Source of the DNA: Methylonatrum kenyense | Lineage (GTDB): Bacteria; Pseudomonadota; Gammaproteobacteria; Nitrococcales; Aquisalimonadaceae | Length of the DNA stretch: 64,000 nucleotides | Reading direction: 5' to 3' | Assembly (NCBI RefSeq): GCF_023195885.1 | Contig: NZ_JALPKO010000001.1 | Coordinates: 372,001 to 436,000, forward strand | Shown: positions 3,706 through 42,495 of the stretch, piece by piece | How the letters are laid out: each line of letters opens with the position of its first letter | How positions within the stretch are numbered: position 1 is the stretch's first letter | The notes under the pieces: model-generated | Told to the model about the DNA's origin: nothing | Database searches by the model: none | Seen by the model: the letters and a program-made list of their open reading frames with translations, nothing else | Made by a program: the position numbers and the translations under genes

Positions 3706-5238
3706 TTACTCCAACTCCGATTCGGCCAGCTCACGCATCTGAAAATCCCGCGGATACAGCAGTACTTCGATCCGTCGGTTGGCGCGACGCGCCTCGTCAT
3801 CTGTTTCCTCCGCCAACGGGCGGCTGTCGGCATAACCGACGGCCTGCAGGCGATCCATTGCAATGCCAGCGTTGATCAGCAGCTGCACCGCGGCAGAGGC
3901 ACGGGCCGCGGACAACTCCCAGTTGGTGGGGAAACGTTCCTGCAGTCGCGCCGATATCGGCTGGCTATCACTGTGGCCCTGCACACTGATGAGATGGTCC
4001 GGGAAGCTCTCCAGGGCCTCTGCGAGGAATTGCAGCGTCTCGCGTCCGGCGTCACTGATTACCGCCGAACCCGAGCCGAATACAATACTCTCCGGCAGCT
4101 TGATCACCGTGGTTCCGTCTTCGAGCCGGGACACCAGGGTCTCGCGCTCGTCGCTGAGTGACTCCAACTGCTTCTGCAGGGTGTCCATCGCGGCGCCTTC
4201 GCGGTCGAGCCGTGCAGACAGCTCGGCAATGGTCTGGCTGTAGCTCTCGCTGCGCGCCTCCTTGGCGCCGAGTTCCTGGCGCGCCTGCAGGTACCGTTGC
4301 TCGACGGTTTCCCGTTCCTCGGCAATCCGGGCCAGCTCCGCCTCACGCTCGCCAAGCGTCGATTCCGCTGCGGCAAGGCGAGTCTCCGCATCCTCCAGCT
4401 GCGTAGCGAGACCGTCGGTTTCCTGCTCGAGCCGCTCGCGGTCCGCGACAACAACGTCCAACTGGTCCCGATACCTGTCCCGCTCAGCCGCCAGGGCATC
4501 TCTGGCAGCCGTGATTTCGGTGACGACCTGCTCGGTCCCGGCATACCGCTCTTCGGCCTTCTCTGCCCGCGCTGCCAACTCCGCAAGCTCCGATTCCATC
4601 GTCTTGATCCGATCGCGCGCGGCTTCCAGCTCCGCATCGCCCTGCTCCCGTACCTGCTCAGCGGCAGCAAGCGCGCTTTTCGTGGCCTCAAGCCGTACAT
4701 CCTGGTCGCTGGTCTTCGCCTCCAATTCGTCCACGCGGGCGAGAGCAGCCTGCCGCTCAGCGCCGAGTTTCTCCTGTTTCAGTTCAAGCGCAGCCAGTTC
4801 ACTGTCGGCGGCCTCCAGCCGGGCGTCACGATCGGTCAGATTGGCCTCCAGCCCATCCACTCGCGCAAGAGCGGCTTCCAGTTCCGCCTCGGCGGCCTGC
4901 ATCGCACGCTCCGCCTGCTCACCGGCATGGCGTGCATCCCGAAGCTCATCCTGCAGCGCCTCGATCCGCTGGTCCCGCGCCTCCAGTTCCTCGGCCAGTT
5001 GACCTTCGCCCGCCTCCCGCTGCGCGAGACGGGAGCGGAAATCCCCAACGCTGGATTCCAGCGACCGACGCTCGGTAGTCTCCTGTTCGAGACGTTCCTC
5101 CAGCGCGGAAACCTCCTGTCTTGCCTGGTCGCGTTCACCCACCGCGGCAGAAAGGGCGAGATGGAAATGGGTTGCCGCGGCGATCGCGATCACCAGCAGT
5201 ACCGCGACACCAACGGTCAGCACACCCCTGTTCGCCAT
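3706..5238 (-). CDS. Coiled-coil membrane protein with OmpA/MotB peptidoglycan-binding domain
   Basis: 510 residues. An N-terminal membrane anchor (residues 4-24) is followed by about 330 residues of heptad-rich coiled coil (repeated DELEA, RDARLEA-type blocks). The OmpA-like C-terminal domain spans about residues 375-500. Peptidoglycan-binding residues are visible in GHSDSQPIS, NWELSAARA, GYADSRP and RRANRRIEVLL. The arrangement matches MotB-like orphan proteins that tether the inner membrane to the wall across the periplasm. There is no MotA partner next to it, so it is probably not a flagellar stator. A short tail (FQMRELAESELE) follows the OmpA fold. Confidence 0.88.
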   Translation of the reverse strand: MANRGVLTVGVAVLLVIAIAAATHFHLALSAAVGERDQARQEVSALEERLEQETTERRSLESSVGDFRSRLAQREAGEGQLAEELEARDQRIEALQDELRDARHAGEQAERAMQAAEAELEAALARVDGLEANLTDRDARLEAADSELAALELKQEKLGAERQAALARVDELEAKTSDQDVRLEATKSALAAAEQVREQGDAELEAARDRIKTMESELAELAARAEKAEERYAGTEQVVTEITAARDALAAERDRYRDQLDVVVADRERLEQETDGLATQLEDAETRLAAAESTLGEREAELARIAEERETVEQRYLQARQELGAKEARSESYSQTIAELSARLDREGAAMDTLQKQLESLSDERETLVSRLEDGTTVIKLPESIVFGSGSAVISDAGRETLQFLAEALESFPDHLISVQGHSDSQPISARLQERFPTNWELSAARASAAVQLLINAGIAMDRLQAVGYADSRPLAEETDDEARRANRRIEVLLYPRDFQMRELAESELE

Positions 5239-25570: not shown

Positions 25571-26083
25571 TCACCGGTCCAATGTCGAGGTAAACGCGGC
25601 CAGGCTGTCCGCCAGCCTGGCGACCGCCGACGAGTCGGCTGCCTTGGCCAGCATTGCGGCTTGGGACGCCTGAACAGTTGCCAAGGCCTCTTCAATAAGA
25701 GTCGCGCCTGACTCGGACAGACGGATTCGAACACTCCTGCCATCCGTAGGATCCGGAAGGCGCTTGACCAGTTGTCGGGTCTCCAGGTTCTTGAGGATCT
25801 TGGTCATTCCGCCAGAGGTGACGACCATCGCGTTGTATAACTCCGATGGGCGCATCTCGCGAGGCGGGGCGAGCTTACGCAAGGATGATAGGACAGCGAA
25901 CTCCACCGGCGACAGCTCAAAACGGGCCATCTCCCTAGCCGACTCTTCCAGAATCAAGTCACGCAGTCTGAACAGTCGATTAACCAGCTTGGTGACACTC
26001 GTGTCCGCTTCTGGCCAGTGGCGAGCGGTGCGCAAGAGCATGTCTTCTACGTGGTAGCGAGCAGTCGGCATAAGGCAAGTCAA
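25571..26083 (-). CDS. MarR family transcriptional regulator
   Basis: 170 residues from 26083; ATGs at 26071 and 26041 are alternative starts. The winged helix is clear: LSPVEFAVLSSLRKL, helix-turn-helix PSELYNAMVVTSGGMTKILKNLE and wing RLPDPTDGRSVRIRLSESG. It reads divergently from the small gene and dps at 26256-27009, with a perfect inverted repeat (26100-26135) between them. It therefore probably controls itself and dps in response to a small ligand or oxidant. Confidence 0.88.
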   Translation of the reverse strand: MTCLMPTARYHVEDMLLRTARHWPEADTSVTKLVNRLFRLRDLILEESAREMARFELSPVEFAVLSSLRKLAPPREMRPSELYNAMVVTSGGMTKILKNLETRQLVKRLPDPTDGRSVRIRLSESGATLIEEALATVQASQAAMLAKAADSSAVARLADSLAAFTSTLDR

Positions 26084-26255: not shown

Positions 26256-26450
26256 ATGCAATTACTGAATGAATTCGGGGATTCCAATCTGGTGGAACCG
26301 ACGCGGTCTGCCGAAAAATTTGCCGCGAAACCGGCCGCCCTCCGCGGGTCGACGACCCGGGAGAACCACCCGCGCTCGCGCGAGTGGGACACCTGGGATC
26401 GCCGTCTCCTCGATACCTTTCCGGCGAGCGACGCGGTCGCCCGCTATTGA
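26256..26450 (+). CDS. Small acidic-tail protein upstream of dps
   Basis: 64 residues from ATG 26256 (AAGAGG about 10 bases upstream). The C-terminus WDTWDRRLLDTFPASDAVARY carries the (E/D)SFPASD-type tail found in many short bacterial proteins of unknown function. It is 31 bases before dps on the same strand, so it is probably cotranscribed. Role unknown. Confidence 0.6.
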   Translation: MQLLNEFGDSNLVEPTRSAEKFAAKPAALRGSTTRENHPRSREWDTWDRRLLDTFPASDAVARY

Positions 26451-26481
26451 AGCGCCTGACCTTGATTGGAGACTGACAGAT

Positions 26482-27009
26482 ATGGCACCTGAAAAACGCA
26501 CCAGCACGCGACAGGTTCCTCCTAGGGAACTCTTCACGCACAACAGCCTGGCCGTGAATGTGCGCAGGCCGATGATCGACCTGCTCAACCAATGTCTGGC
26601 CGACGCCGTGGACCTGGAAACGCAGGCACGCCAGGCACACTGGAACGTGAGCGGGCCGAACTTCATAGCGCTTCACGCGCTATTTGATAAGGTCTTCCAG
26701 CAAATCCAGAGCCACGTCGACACTCTCGCGGAACGCGTAACGGCCCTCGGTGGCATAGCTGTTGGAACAGCAGCTGCCGCAGCGAAGCATTCCCGGCTTC
26801 CCAGCTACCCCGCGGATGCCGTTGGCGGAACCACGCATGTCGAGGCGTTATCCAGCGCCCTCGCCTCATTCGGGCGTTCGGTGCGCGAAGCAATCCCTCG
26901 CGCCGAAGATGCGGGAGACATGGGAACATCAGATCTTTTTACAGAGATCAGCCGTGACATCGACCAGCAACTGTGGCTGGTGGAGGCCCATCTGAGGACA
27001 CAGACCTGA
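26482..27009 (+). CDS. dps: Dps family DNA-binding ferritin-like protein
   Basis: 175 residues from ATG 26482 (GGAGA upstream). The ferroxidase-site residues are in the family pattern: AHWNVSGPNFIALHALFDKVF (His, His, Asp) and SHVDTLAERVTALGG (Asp, Glu). The N-terminal ~20 residues are basic, as in DNA-binding Dps. It oxidises and stores iron in a dodecamer and protects DNA from peroxide. Second gene after the small protein at 26256, divergent from a MarR regulator. A strong bidirectional terminator follows at 27285. Confidence 0.93.
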   Translation: MAPEKRTSTRQVPPRELFTHNSLAVNVRRPMIDLLNQCLADAVDLETQARQAHWNVSGPNFIALHALFDKVFQQIQSHVDTLAERVTALGGIAVGTAAAAAKHSRLPSYPADAVGGTTHVEALSSALASFGRSVREAIPRAEDAGDMGTSDLFTEISRDIDQQLWLVEAHLRTQT

Positions 27010-27827: not shown

Positions 27828-28349
27828 ATGGCATATGTCCTTGAGCGAAACATGAATAAGGGGCGCGGAGGTATCGAGCATGTTACCCACGGTCTCGTTC
27901 CAGTCCTTTTCCGCGGGCTTCCTGGTGTCAGGATTGAGGAAACCAATTCCGGAATTCGGGTTCTTGCGGAGTGCGAGTCATCAATGAACAAGGCGGTGGA
28001 AAAAATCCACGCCTATCTACCCGGCCAATTCGTTGCCGGGGAAATGGCTATCCGTTTCCGGGCAACGCCGGAGCTTTCAGAGCCTGTCATGCGCGTTTGT
28101 ATATTGGCGCCGGTGCAGGCGGATCGGCCCATCCGACGCGCGTTGGTATGGCGCTCCGTTCCGCTTGTAGGCCGCAGTTTCCGCGGCATGCGCCGTGTAT
28201 TCTATGCAACGGCACCACTCTCCAAACTGCTGGGGTTGGAGCGGGAACTGAAGGAGATAGCCGGAGACGACGTGGACGTTACGATGACCCTCGGTCACTA
28301 CGCACCGCTGGAGGTCGTACAACACGGTAGCTCGACCAGATCGAAGTAG
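27828..28349 (+). CDS. Stand-alone protein resembling C-terminal domains of EF-G
   Basis: 173 residues from ATG 27828; ATG 27852 is an alternative. The second half follows EF-G domain V: LSEPVMRVCILAP (EF-G: LEPIMKVEVVTP), then FYATAPLSKLLGLERELKEI (EF-G: RAEVPLSEMFGYATDLRSL), then VDVTMTLGHYAPLE (EF-G: ASYSMEFDHYEPVP). The first half (LPGVRIEETNSGIRVLAECE) resembles domain III. There is no G domain or P-loop. The upstream 180 bases are AT-richer than average. It may modulate ribosomes or be a relic of a horizontally acquired protector; function unknown. Confidence 0.55.
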   Translation: MAYVLERNMNKGRGGIEHVTHGLVPVLFRGLPGVRIEETNSGIRVLAECESSMNKAVEKIHAYLPGQFVAGEMAIRFRATPELSEPVMRVCILAPVQADRPIRRALVWRSVPLVGRSFRGMRRVFYATAPLSKLLGLERELKEIAGDDVDVTMTLGHYAPLEVVQHGSSTRSK

Positions 28350-28517: not shown

Positions 28518-29309
28518 CTATTGCTGTCCTTGATTATCCATCGAAGCCCCACGCCGGGACGTCGCCGCATACTGGCCGCGAGAGTGCCGCGGCCGATACG
28601 AACGCACTGCGCCCGCGGTTTCGCCCACCAATCCGTAAAATTCGCGCGCTTTTTCGGCCTCCGCACGCCAGAACGCACCCCCATCGTCACCGGTCGGGCA
28701 GCGTTTCCCGCCCGGCCTGCAGCGCCTCGCGGCCTCCATGAACCCTTCCCAGGGCCCCTCTTCGGAATCGGCTTTTACCAGCGAGGCCAGAAACGGCCGC
28801 CCTGCCCGTTGATCCTCATGCATCAGGATTGCCAGTGCGCGACGTGGCAACTTCGGTTCGACCGCCGACATGACCGTGGCGAGTTGATCCTGTAGCTCGG
28901 ATTCGCTGACATACCCGGTTTCCCCAACATGCTGGAGCAGGATGGAGCGAACCAGCAATCGCATCCGATTCAGGGTCAAGGCGGTCTCCGATAATCTGGT
29001 TTCCCGCCGCAATCCCGGCCGCGGTGAGTGGCGCGGGACGCGATCCAACACCAGATCCGTCTCCAGTTCATAGGCGCTACCATCCGGTTCAATGACACCA
29101 GACCATAGCTTCGTGCCCGCACGAAAACTGACTCGCGCTCTGCCGTCGTCATCTGCCACACCATGCTCAACGGTCGCGGTAACCCGACCGGTACGCATCG
29201 CCTGCCTTAGCTCGTTTTCGGAAAAGCCAAGCCGCTCGGCGACAAACGAAGCATCGACAGTAATCTCATTCGGAAAACCGGAGAAAACAGAAGCTGGCAA
29301 GGCTCGCAT
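28518..29309 (-). CDS. DUF6522-like domain protein with unknown C-terminal domain
   Basis: 263 residues from ATG 29309, set by an excellent GGAAGGAGGTC site. Residues ~1-85 match DUF6522 (ITVDASFVAERLGFSENELR, GRVTATVEHGVADDDGRARV, FRAGTKLWSGVI). The following ~170 residues (RLSETALTLNRMRLLVRSIL, PKLPRRALAILMHEDQRAG) are helical and unrecognised. The last ~25 residues are Arg-rich. The promoter region holds a 19-base palindrome (29378-29396) shared with the MarR gene at 29442-30014, so it is probably repressed by that regulator. Confidence 0.75.
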   Translation of the reverse strand: MRALPASVFSGFPNEITVDASFVAERLGFSENELRQAMRTGRVTATVEHGVADDDGRARVSFRAGTKLWSGVIEPDGSAYELETDLVLDRVPRHSPRPGLRRETRLSETALTLNRMRLLVRSILLQHVGETGYVSESELQDQLATVMSAVEPKLPRRALAILMHEDQRAGRPFLASLVKADSEEGPWEGFMEAARRCRPGGKRCPTGDDGGAFWRAEAEKAREFYGLVGETAGAVRSYRPRHSRGQYAATSRRGASMDNQGQQ

Positions 29310-29377: not shown

Positions 29378-29396
29378 TATTTTCGATTCGAAACTA
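29378..29396. promoter_or_regulatory. Candidate MarR operator, site 2
   Basis: TATTTTCG-ATT-CGAAACTA is an imperfect (7 of 8) inverted repeat with the same ATT centre and length as the perfect palindrome at 30023-30041. It lies 69 bases upstream of the DUF6522 start. Confidence 0.65.
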
Positions 29397-29441
29397 TATA
29401 GGACAAACCAGCTTCTGACGCACGATCGCCGCGTCGCTCAA

Positions 29442-30014
29442 TCAGGGCACCGAGGGTTCGTGAATCACGCAGACCGCATCAAGCTCATCACGCCCCAGCG
29501 GCCGATCCATGCGCCGACAAAGCGGAGCGGAGTTGCCGCCCTGCTCGAGACAACGACAATCCCGACACGTACCGACGCTCACTCCATCCCAGCCATCCGC
29601 ACCCTGATCGAGCAAGTGCTGGACCACTCGACCAAGCACCTGCCGGTCCGCCTCGGCGAGCTTGGCAATGGCATCGGTCAGGCCGCCGCCACGAATCTGA
29701 TCCAGCATTCGCTCCCCGGCCACAGTCAACCGAATTTCGGCGCTGCGCCCGTCGTCGGGAGATTGCAGCCGACGGATGTAGCCCCGCGACTCCAACTGCT
29801 TGATGACTTGTGACGCCGTACCGCGGGAGGTGGCGTTGTAAGAGGCGAACCCGGAGACCGTGCGTGACAAGCTGTTGGCCATGCCGAAAAACTGCAATGC
29901 AGCCCATTGGAGCGGTGTGAGGTCGTCCGCCGGAAAGGCTGCCTCGTTCCGCCGAACAATGTGCCGCAATGCCGCAGCCATGAATTGAACGCGCTGTGTT
30001 TTGTCGTTGGCCAT
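29442..30014 (-). CDS. MarR family regulator with cysteine-rich C-terminal tail
   Basis: 190 residues. The winged helix-turn-helix is intact (LTPLQWAALQFFGM, TSRGTASQVIKQLESRGYI, RLQSPDDGRSAEIRLTVAG). After the dimerisation helices, a ~45-residue tail holds five or more cysteines (GTCRDCRCLEQGG, PLCRRMDRPL, AVCVIHEP). This is a likely zinc or iron-sulfur site, which ordinary MarR proteins lack. It is divergent from the DUF2237 gene with a perfect operator between them, so autoregulation is expected; it may sense metal or redox state. Confidence 0.85.
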   Translation of the reverse strand: MANDKTQRVQFMAAALRHIVRRNEAAFPADDLTPLQWAALQFFGMANSLSRTVSGFASYNATSRGTASQVIKQLESRGYIRRLQSPDDGRSAEIRLTVAGERMLDQIRGGGLTDAIAKLAEADRQVLGRVVQHLLDQGADGWDGVSVGTCRDCRCLEQGGNSAPLCRRMDRPLGRDELDAVCVIHEPSVP

Positions 30015-30022
30015 ATCCGGTA

Positions 30023-30041
30023 TAGTATCGATTCGATACTA
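30023..30041. promoter_or_regulatory. Candidate MarR operator, site 1 (perfect palindrome)
   Basis: TAGTATCG-ATT-CGATACTA: exact 8-base arms with a 3-base centre, 9 bases from the MarR start and 29 bases before the divergent DUF2237 start. Confidence 0.75.
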
Positions 30042-30069
30042 GTTTGCAAGCAACGGGATCAGATCTCGC

Positions 30070-30447
30070 ATGCAGAAATTCGCATCCACCAATGTGCTGG
30101 GCGACCCGCTAAAACCCTGCGGTCTGAATCCTGTGACCGGCTTTTTCCGGGATGGATGCTGCAATAGCGGTTACGCCGACCACGGCGTGCACACCGTTTG
30201 CGCAATGGTCACCGCCGAGTTCCTGGCCTTCTCCCGCAGTCGAGGCAACGATCTCACGACGCCGTTTCCAGAGGCTGACTTTCCCGGCCTCAAGCCCGGC
30301 GATCGCTGGTGTCTGTGCGCGGCCCGCTGGCTGGAAGCCTATCGGGCCGGCGTGGCGCCACCGGTTGATCTCGCCGCCACCCATGAAGAGACACTGGCCG
30401 TGATCGAACGCTCCGCGCTGGAGCGGCACGCAATCAGTCCCGACTGA
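30070..30447 (+). CDS. DUF2237 family protein
   Basis: 125 residues, full length for the family. Hallmarks: NVLGDPLKPCGLNPVTGFFR, DGCCNSGYADHGVHTVCA, LAFSRSRGNDLTTPFPE and FPGLKPGDRWCLCAARW. The family keeps several invariant cysteines and a fold of unknown chemistry. It is divergent from the Cys-tailed MarR regulator across the 30023 operator and 14 bases before the next small gene, so it probably heads a regulated operon. Confidence 0.9.
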   Translation: MQKFASTNVLGDPLKPCGLNPVTGFFRDGCCNSGYADHGVHTVCAMVTAEFLAFSRSRGNDLTTPFPEADFPGLKPGDRWCLCAARWLEAYRAGVAPPVDLAATHEETLAVIERSALERHAISPD

Positions 30448-30461
30448 GGCAGGCCCTGACC

Positions 30462-30824
30462 ATGACCCCAACAATGGCACGCGTTGCCACCTTCGGCACG
30501 CACAGCGACCTGCATTGGCAATCCATCGCCGACCCGGTCATGGTTGGTCGATCCCGCGGTGACCTTGAAGCCGTCGATCAGCAGGCCGGCGACTGGCAGA
30601 TCACCGATCTTCCGTTCGACGAGTTCGTGGCCACCCAGCGCGGTCGAGTCCCGCCCGAAGCAGCGCCCCTCGACAGGAGCCGCATCGCCTCACCGAGCCT
30701 GTTCATCTCGAACCGGCGAGCCGGCCCGTTCACAATGCTCCTGCGGGAAATTACGGCCTACTCAAGCAACCAGGAAACCGGACTTCGGCCCTGCCCTGTT
30801 CGGCCTCGGGCGCCATCACCGTAA
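30462..30824 (+). CDS. Hypothetical protein
   Basis: 120 residues from ATG 30462, 14 bases after DUF2237 and 49 before SelO. Third-position GC is high across most of the frame, as in real genes here. The sequence ([38 protein letters not shown]) resembles no family I know. The last ~25 residues look less gene-like. It may be an eroded or lineage-specific gene. Confidence 0.45.
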
Positions 30825-30873: not shown

Positions 30874-32640
30874 ATGGCAACAAGCGCTTCGACCGTAAAG
30901 CGGTCAGACATCGAGACGCTGGAAGACCTGGCAAGACTTGCCGACTTCTCGCTGTTGCGTTCACTGGACTGCGATCCCGACGCCAGGTCGGACGGCGTCG
31001 ATCACGCCCCGAGGCAGGTGTTCTCCGGACACTATGTGCCCGTGAGACCGACCCCGCTTGGCGACCCGGATTACGTGGCCCACGGTCACGGCCTGTTCCA
31101 GGAGCTGGGCTTGAGCGACAAGCTCGCGCGTTCCGGCCCGTTCATGCGCCTGTTTTCTGGCGATCTGGCGGCGGTGCCGGAGGGCATGCGAAAGACCGGC
31201 TGGGCCTGCGGCTACGCGCTGTCCATCTTCGGCACCGAATACACCAGGCAGTGCCCGTTTCAGACCGGCAACGGCTATGGCGACGGCCGCGCCATTTCCG
31301 TGCTGGAAGCGGTCATTCGCGGGAACCGTTGGGAAATGCAGCTCAAGGGGGCGGGCCGGACACCCTACTGCCGCGGCGCAGACGGCCGTGCCGTGTTGCG
31401 ATCCAGTGTGCGCGAATTTCTGGCACAGGAGCACATGCACGCCCTCGGTGTTCCAACATCGCGGTCCCTCTGCCTGTATGTCTCCAGAACGGAACGGGCC
31501 GAACGCCCCTGGTATGCCCCTGGGAGCACCTCCGTCGATCCGGATCAACTGGTGTCGGAACCCGTGGCGATCACGACACGCGTCGCGCCCTCATTCCTGC
31601 GTATCGGAACCCTCGAACTGTTCAGTCGTCGTGCACGGAATCAGTCCCATGCGCGCTCCGCAGAGGAACTGCGCAAACTCCTCTCGCATGCCACCGAACG
31701 GGAATACGCCGACACCATCGACGCGTCCCTGAACTCTGAAGACCAGCTGATCGCCTTTGCCCGCGCCTTCCGCGAGCGGTTCGCATCGCTGGTGGCCAAC
31801 TGGATCCGCGTCGGCTATTGCCAGGGCAACTTCAACAGCGACAACTGCGCCGTCGGCGGCTTCACGCTGGATTACGGGCCGTTCGGCTTCTGCGACATGT
31901 TCGATCCGTACTACCAACCCTGGACCGGCGGCGGGAGGCATTTCTCGTTCTTCGCCCAACCCATCGCCGCAGAGCACAACTTCCGCACGTTCTGTTCAAC
32001 ACTGCGGCCCCTGATCGGAACGGATACCAAACAATCGGCCGCACTGGACGAGATCGAGGAGGGCTTCCCCGACGTCATGCGGGAAAAGATGGAACGCATG
32101 TGGGCCGCAAAACTCGGGCTGCCAGCCTTCGATCCGGAGCTTTTCGAAACGCTCATGGCGCTCATGATCCGAACGCCGGTGGACTACACCGTGTTCTTCC
32201 GTGAACTATCCAACCTGCCCGCGGATATCGAACCGCTGAAAAAGAGCTTCTATGACGACCTGCCCCGGCAGGCGCGCGGGGGCCAGTCGATGGACGCCGG
32301 GGTCCGTGATCAGCTCTGGTCGGTATGGCTTGAGGCATGGCGCTCACGACTGGGACTCGGCACCACGAATGGAATCGCCGCCGAACCGGGCAGGACACAG
32401 GCCGATATCTCGGCCGCGATGAAACGCGTCAACCCGAAGTACACGCTGCGGGAATGGTTGCTCGCGCCCGCCTACGAGCAGGCCGCCGCCGGCGACTATT
32501 CGCTGATTCGCGAACTGCAGGACATCATGACCCAACCGTACGCCGAGCAATCGAAAGCGGTGGAAGAGCGCTATTACAGGCTGAAACCGCCGGAATATTT
32601 CAACGCCGGCGGGATCTCACAGATGAGTTGCTCGTCCTAG
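30874..32640 (+). CDS. selO: Protein adenylyltransferase SelO (YdiU family)
   Basis: 588 residues from ATG 30874 (GGGAG upstream). It is an atypical kinase-fold enzyme that transfers AMP to Ser/Thr/Tyr. Visible: [36 protein letters not shown] (nucleotide-binding loop and conserved Arg), and [26 protein letters not shown] (catalytic Asn and DYGPFGF metal Asp). The C-terminus ends MSCSS, a Cys at the position of selenocysteine in eukaryotic SelO. Bacterial SelO modifies metabolic and redox proteins during oxidative stress. Third gene in a run starting at 30070. Confidence 0.93.
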
Positions 32641-33079: not shown

Positions 33080-33357
33080 CTAGGGAAACACTGATTAATT
33101 CGCGCGCCTGCGCCCGAGACCGGTTTTGGTCATCTGGCAAGGCGCGGTGCCGGTTCGGTAGCCAGAGCTACCGGGCCGGTGGCGCAACGCCGCCAGGGGC
33201 CAAAACCGGCCGGGCCCTTCGGGTTGGGCCGCATTTTCCCGATTGCTGTGTTGCGCTGCGTGACCGCAGAACCGCTGCGGCGCTGCACAGCACGTCTTGC
33301 CTCGGAAAAAAATGCGGACTCCAACGCGGGCGCGGGAATAAATCAGTGTTTCCTTAA
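33080..33357. mobile_element. MITE, full-length copy A
   Basis: The core is 33084-33353 (270 bases), with left end CTAG then GGAAACACTGATTAATTC and right end GAATAAATCAGTGTTTCC then TTAA. Inside it follows copy B closely (GGTTTTGG, GGCAAGGCGCGGTGCCGGTT, GGCCGGGCCCTTCGGGTTGG, CCTTGCCTCGGAAAAA). There is no open frame long enough for a transposase. It lies between the ORF6N-like gene and the lipoprotein gene. Confidence 0.88.
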
Positions 33358-33398
33358 TGAGCAGTCCGCGCAAGGCGGCAGGACCATCGGCCCAGAGC

Positions 33399-33422
33399 CG
33401 CCTCATCCATCAGCCGCATTAG
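33399..33422 (-). pseudogene. 3' relic of the SWIM gene
   Basis: 24 bases encode MRLMDEAA, matching the end MRLMDEAGLA of the intact SWIM gene at 35212-36852 with two or three differences. Palindromic repeat copy 2 follows immediately, just as an equivalent repeat neighbours the intact gene's end. Confidence 0.5.
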
Positions 33423-42474: not shown

Positions 42475-42495
42475 GGCCGGCGCGAAGCGCCGGCC
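42475..42495. terminator. Perfect GC hairpin
   Basis: GGCCGGCGC-GAA-GCGCCGGCC: 9-bp stem, 3-base loop, no T-run. It lies in the 500-base divergent region between nrdJ and the gene at 42738; otherwise that region holds the NrdR boxes and no gene. Confidence 0.45.

Follow-up and report, generated by a model that had tools for sequence, protein, structure and literature searches.

The 64,000-nucleotide stretch of Methylonatrum kenyense DNA analyzed here (the window) encodes a 190-residue regulator of the MarR family at 29442-30014 on the minus strand. It matched the Pfam profiles MarR_2 (6.9e-13, 49 bits against a cut-off of 27) and MarR (5e-10, 39.5 bits against 24.6). Its AlphaFold2 model has a mean pLDDT of 87.8 and matches MarR structures, with 209 PDB chains at E ≤0.001; among the matches listed, the top rows are MarR-type regulators. 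The protein is 70% identical to a homolog in the public MAG SKGQ01000024.1 (Ectothiorhodospiraceae bacterium). The next gene downstream, on the same strand, encodes a DUF6522-domain protein (28518-29309; PF20132, 4.4e-14, 52.4 bits against a cut-off of 25). Its reading frame has a possible start at TTG 29375 and an alternative one at ATG 29309, with AGGAGGT just upstream, and the ATG looks better. Divergent from the regulator, on the plus strand, is a DUF2237 gene (30070-30447; PF09996, 1.7e-53), a candidate local target, followed by a CIA30-domain ORF (30462-30824; PF08547, 1.1e-11) and a gene for a SelO-like protein (30874-32640; PF02696, 3.3e-66), a homolog of which is divergent from the regulator at loci L023-L025.

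The two 19-bp operators claimed by the first-pass annotation are real and conserved. Operator 1 (30023-30041) is a perfect 8-3-8 palindrome, TAGTATCG-ATT-CGATACTA, lying 8 bp from the regulator ATG and 28 bp from the DUF2237 ATG (30070, plus strand), and similar sites precede regulator homologs. Operator 2 (29378-29396), TATTTTCG-ATT-CGAAACTA, has the same center and one arm mismatch, stands before the DUF6522 gene and has counterparts at L017 and L018; with ATG 29309 as the start, it lies about 70 bp upstream of the DUF6522 start. Because the window holds four perfect 8-3-8 palindromes, palindromy alone is unremarkable; the three besides operator 1 (at 42476, 43422 and 63174) are GC-rich and unlike the operator. 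The operator was accepted as real because of its second copy and its conservation among relatives. At up to three mismatches, the 19-mer occurs at these two places and no third in the window (mean 0.00 in 100 shuffles). The scan of the own genome (2.95 Mb) that the annotation had proposed gave one further site at up to three mismatches, C1:51335-51353, making three in all, and none with a reversed control pattern. This site has two arm mismatches and precedes an ORF, RDD-like by eye, by 197 bp; it was rejected as a third operator and judged a chance occurrence, about 0.6 such sites being expected by a hand estimate.

Both strands carry promoter-like sequences across operator 1. The predicted regulator promoter, TTGCAA-16-TACTAT (30022-30049, minus strand), has a -10 box that shares five of its six bases with the operator and ends 7 nt ahead of the ATG, which would make the regulator transcript leaderless. 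A possible DUF2237 promoter with four mismatches to the consensus, TTGTCG-16-TAGTAT (30001-30028, plus strand), takes its -10 box from the other end of the palindrome, inside the operator. Because one palindrome overlaps the -10 boxes of both strands, one bound dimer would cover both promoters. A -10-like hexamer ending 6-8 nt before the regulator ATG was found by script at 16 of 29 loci, a set to which L051 does not belong, and the same layout was seen by eye at six more (L019, L052, L053, L061, L062 and L069); it is absent at L021, L023, L059 and L064-L067. The support for DNA binding by the regulator is good, if indirect, and the operator very probably mediates repression.

Several further observations were made in the window. 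A second MarR-type gene, divergent from a Dps-like ferritin gene, lies a few kilobases from the operators (25571-26083 and 26269-27009). An ORF at 27828-28349 has a weak match to the elongation factor G C-terminal domain (2.5e-4, below the cut-off). The translations of 33095-33406 and of 3721-4074 at locus L016 look alike by eye over a long stretch (VGVRIF-RGK-C--PQ-FCG-A--HSNRE), which suggests an interspersed DNA repeat in the own genome.

Distribution of the operator

A regulator homolog at E ≤1e-10 was found in 10 of 95 relative genomes, the own genome included. At 8 of the 10 non-own relative loci, a site within four mismatches lies near the regulator (G001, G002, G003, G005, G008, G012, G022 and G089), and both loci of G004 have no such site near it. 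L015 and L017, equal in length (12,655), are very probably one contig, and L026 and L050 cover one locus; each pair was counted once. At L017-L020 and L022, and also at L015, the site ends 8-9 bp ahead of the regulator start. Similar sites adjoin MarR homologs of just 20-28% identity to the window regulator. In the class sample, where the best 10 candidates were scored in most genomes, the regulator was found at E ≤1e-25 in 20 of 321 genomes, the own genome included. The strict pattern TAGTWTCGAWNCGAWACTA occurs in two of the 321 (the own genome and G089), each time directly before the regulator, and the G089 regulator next to it is only 27% identical to that of the window.

The small regulon that the annotation had claimed is borne out by genome scans. 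At up to two mismatches, 21 distinct sites are spread over 17 of the 28 regulator genomes. The regulator locus accounts for 17 of these sites; the other four are C1:51335 in G000, one on C207 of G206 and two in G300. Eleven of the 28 genomes have no site at this threshold, and the reversed control gave none in the 28. The regulon is very small.

A weight matrix was made from 22 sites at regulator loci. Across 41 further loci (133,658 bases), a score of at least 18 was reached only in the four with the regulator (L090, L091, L092 and L099), and in the HiPIP loci (63,106 bases) it was reached nowhere. In phylum-sample genomes, 9 of 14 loci have a site scoring at least 16 (L144-L149, L151, L152 and L156), and at L144-L147 this site precedes a thioredoxin-like gene; the other five, all from one same-phylum genus, have none (L150, L153, L154, L155 and L157). 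No site scoring at least 11 was found at L025, L053, L064 and L065. Comparison of the site and promoter scans showed that a site scoring at least 11 overlaps the regulator promoter region at 18 of 29 loci. Many regulator-side sites score 11 to 20, below those ahead of the neighbor gene.

Genes beside the regulator

The recurring neighbors of the regulator are a DUF6522-like gene in close relatives and a cytochrome c'-beta gene elsewhere. The annotation had named DUF6522 and DUF2237 as targets. A DUF6522-like gene lies downstream on the same strand at 6 of the 10 non-own relative loci, those of L020 and L021 having no match to the DUF6522 domain itself. Among the relative loci, a separate operator ahead of this gene occurs only in the window, G001 and G002. 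DUF2237, however, adjoins the operator in this genome only, among the loci compared, and is at most a local target. In the accessible part of PMC5932025, DUF2237 is described as enriched in rhodopsin-bearing Flavobacteriia and phototrophs; since it is not conserved as a neighbor, a light-stress reading based on it was abandoned. Other genes divergent from the regulator in relatives include a cyclopropane fatty acid synthase homolog in G001 (L018, 5523-6701) and a gene matching a Tll0287-like domain (L019, 6689-7381; 1.5e-23).

DUF6522 is rare. Counting the own genome in both samples, it was found in 6 of 59 relatives, of which five also carry the regulator, and in 9 of 249 phylum-sample genomes. 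Of the eight other phylum genomes, two place it beside Rrf2 and globin genes, identified by Pfam at L094 and from the translation at L095. NnrS is the neighbor at L098, and both L096 and L100 have DUF2249/TusA along with genes for Fe-S assembly. At L093, L097 and L101, of which L101 was scanned, no neighbor was recognized. A literature search on DUF6522 found nothing.

A P460-family gene adjoins the regulator in 12 of the 19 non-own class genomes that carry it (G089, G105 with an internal stop, G114, G115, G165, G178, G279, G281, G308, G351, G360 and G362), and is absent beside it in seven (G188, G191, G206, G250, G300, G317 and G319). A site scoring at least 20 lies on the P460 side at 11 of the 12 loci, the exception being L064 with none. 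The one copy searched, that of G089 (L026), matched cytochrome c'-beta structures (6hih, 9e-52; 7ead, 6e-33) better than cytochrome P460 (6hiu, 4e-12), and it keeps Phe at McCP-beta positions 32 and 61. The accessible part of the 2025 review PMC11928373 lists both as pocket phenylalanines of McCP-beta. In this copy, the cross-link Lys is replaced by Phe. Both phenylalanines are kept by eye in 11 of the 12 P460-type neighbors, L059 being the exception, and by sequence the neighbor appears to be of the c'-beta type. The P460 family was found in 18 of the 20 genomes with the regulator and in 58 of the 301 without it (Fisher p=1.3e-10, phylogeny ignored), with regulator status assigned from the best 10 candidates in most genomes. 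In the own genome and the eight regulator-bearing relatives of its order, no P460-family match was found (0/9). A gas-binding function is proposed for cytochromes c'-beta in the same accessible part of PMC11928373, and in a term search of it 'MarR' and 'regulator' occurred in the reference list only.

Other genes stand divergent from the regulator at further loci. These are a thioredoxin-like gene at L055 (by Pfam) and L144-L147 (by translation), with a weak glutaredoxin-domain match at L144; CMD and then AhpC/TSA at L068; and DUF2024 at L050 and L054 (by Pfam) and L067 (by similarity). No literature joining MarR with DUF2024 was found. In addition, a seemingly secreted protein of ~250-290 residues, alike by eye, recurs near the regulator at L055 (4863-5606), L147 (4051-4788) and L149 (6160-6951), and also at L068, L152 and L156. 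It had no Pfam match at L055 and L068 and no NCBIfam match at L055, L147 and L149.

The four-cysteine tail

The regulator carries a C-terminal domain (residues 141-190; 29445-29594, minus strand) with four conserved cysteines, C150, C153, C166 and C182; the fifth tail cysteine, C155, is the only one not conserved. Among the matches listed (60 of 80), no solved MarR sequence reached beyond profile position 157 of 193. From these cysteines, the annotation had suggested a metal or iron-sulfur sensor, a suggestion to be given up if they were not conserved in orthologs. They proved invariant in all 38 aligned tails, which share the pattern C-x2-C-xn-C-x15-C with a constant step of 16 positions from the third to the fourth, and thus the CX2CXnCXnC motif of the HiPIP-like [4Fe-4S] fold; all 29 long sequences have them as well. 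The alignment omits L069 and L156, where the reading frame diverges within the tail, the near-duplicates L145, L146, L153 and L157, in which all four cysteines are present by eye, and the G545 and G625 matches. Part of this invariance reflects selection, because the profiles used to collect the homologs included the tail. The tail is present at each of the 10 non-own loci from the first search, which used the single sequence. The four-cysteine tail is real and conserved.

The AlphaFold2 model of the tail has a mean pLDDT of 92-94 in blocks of residues 151-180, and of 85 when the tail is modeled alone. A Foldseek search of 350,542 PDB chains with the tail model gave six rows at E ≤10, all weak (E 0.96 to 9.4): the glycyl radical enzyme chain 2y8n_B at the top (0.96), two RNA polymerase I chains, the HiPIPs 1eyt and 1pih, and 9pzj_B of benzylsuccinate synthase. 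Four of the six are therefore HiPIP or HiPIP-like [4Fe-4S] proteins. VIA-align gave similarly weak values, with Z 4.0 for 2y8n_B (rmsd 2.5 over 42 residues), 2.6 for 9pzj_B and 2.4 for 1eyt. From titles and lengths, we read 2y8n_B as HPAD-gamma and 9pzj_B as BSS-beta. According to the accessible part of PMC12358834, the glycyl radical enzyme subunits HPAD-gamma, BSS-beta, MASS-beta and MASS-gamma enclose a [4Fe-4S] cluster in a HiPIP-like fold, and some of them have the CX2CXnCXnC motif. The tail is tentatively read as HiPIP-like because these matches, each weak alone, agree. Its cysteine spacing resembles that of HiPIP.

Placement of the tail in the HiPIP family by sequence was rejected, because comparison of its profile with 12 aligned HiPIP sequences from relatives gave an hhalign probability of 0.9%. 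PF01355 (HiPIP) is not among the 15 Pfam families that the 38 tails matched at E ≤10, and these weak matches are led by zinc families (DZR_2 with five, and the IFT121 finger, dskA/traR and the LapB ribbon with three each). Searches with the tail against Pfam and PDB sequences gave nothing solid. Zinc is a serious rival because the HiPIP sequence comparison was negative and the weak Pfam matches are zinc-led. An Fe-S cluster in the tail nevertheless appears more likely than zinc.

Proposed mechanism and known systems

We propose that the protein is a dimeric MarR-type autorepressor that would bind both the 19-bp palindrome over its own promoter's -10 box and the second copy before the DUF6522 gene, so that RNA polymerase would be blocked. 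The C-x2-C-xn-C-x15-C domain would most likely hold a HiPIP-like [4Fe-4S] cluster, and the repressor would be released once this cluster is attacked, the likeliest agent being nitric oxide or a related reactive nitrogen or redox stress. The induced set would be very small and protective, with DUF6522 here and cytochrome c'-beta in many other class genomes. For this reading, with nitric oxide, reactive nitrogen or redox as the signal, the case for and against is evenly balanced in our judgment. Nitric oxide itself is a plausible guess, and the best single one because of the c'-beta-type neighbors and the NO-response genes near some DUF6522 genes; this context was absent from the earlier reading. 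Thiol or oxidant stress fits the thioredoxin-like, DUF2024, AhpC/TSA, CMD and SelO neighbors equally well. A broader formulation is more tentative: an undescribed, widespread MarR class with a HiPIP-like [4Fe-4S] NO sensor and one 19-bp operator would be devoted to regulating cytochrome c'-beta and, in a lineage where c'-beta is lacking, DUF6522.

Three other explanations were weighed against the autorepressor with a nitric oxide-responsive cluster. The architecture could be the same and the signal an oxidant, hypochlorite, reactive sulfur or thiol stress, with c'-beta as one general protective target among several. The genes for thioredoxin-like, CMD and AhpC/TSA, DUF2024 and SelO proteins divergent from the regulator elsewhere agree with this, but the commonest neighbor found is the c'-beta-type gene with its proposed gas-binding role (PMC11928373, in the part accessible), and DUF6522 elsewhere stands partly beside NO-response genes; we regard such a signal as possible, if short of probable. 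It is somewhat unlikely that the four cysteines hold structural zinc in a zinc-ribbon-like tail, with a ligand or oxidant sensed through the MarR core or the zinc thiolates. The zinc-led Pfam matches of the 38 tails and the two RNA polymerase I chains among the six Foldseek matches speak for zinc, whereas the top structural match and four of the six overall are HiPIP or HiPIP-like [4Fe-4S] proteins. The C-x2-C-xn-C-xn-C pattern of the tail, with single third and fourth cysteines, is also unlike a ribbon with two CxxC pairs.

The neighborhoods could also be incidental and the operator serve autoregulation only, as the site solely before the regulator at L019, L020 and L022 and the confinement of DUF2237 adjacency to this genome would suggest. 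The high-scoring sites on the P460 side at 11 of 12 loci and the enrichment of the P460 family with the regulator make this improbable. If the autorepressor reading is right, the signal of cytochromes c'-beta would become testable through a regulator devoted to them and its known operator, and DUF6522 and DUF2024, both domains of unknown function, gain a working hypothesis. If the tail holds a cluster, the MarR family would gain an Fe-S sensor whose fold is otherwise seen in subunits of radical enzymes.

The regulator resembles other MarR proteins in its winged-helix domain, which scores above cut-off, and in the palindrome in its own promoter, and differs from them in the extra four-cysteine C-terminal domain. 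No description of a four-cysteine MarR subfamily was found in literature titles and abstract starts, a search whose scope left out most subscription papers. NsrR of the Rrf2 family, a [4Fe-4S] NO regulator and small repressor of NO-response genes, belongs to a different protein family with a different cysteine pattern. The likeness lies in a small repressor of NO-response genes with proposed Fe-S sensing, and an Rrf2 gene adjoins DUF6522 at L094. HiPIP and the HiPIP-like subunits of glycyl radical enzymes share with the tail the CX2CXnCXnC motif and, weakly, a similar predicted compact fold; however, no sequence similarity to HiPIP was found, and the window tail is fused to a DNA-binding domain. 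The nearest mechanistic analog, likened by description, is ArnR of Corynebacteria. As described in the accessible part of PMC12343034, ArnR has three conserved cysteines, against four here, and other targets, repressing hmp and binding the narK promoter. In the same part of that source, it likewise joins a MarR/ArsR-like winged helix to a C-terminal Fe-S sensory part, and nitric oxide abolishes its DNA binding.
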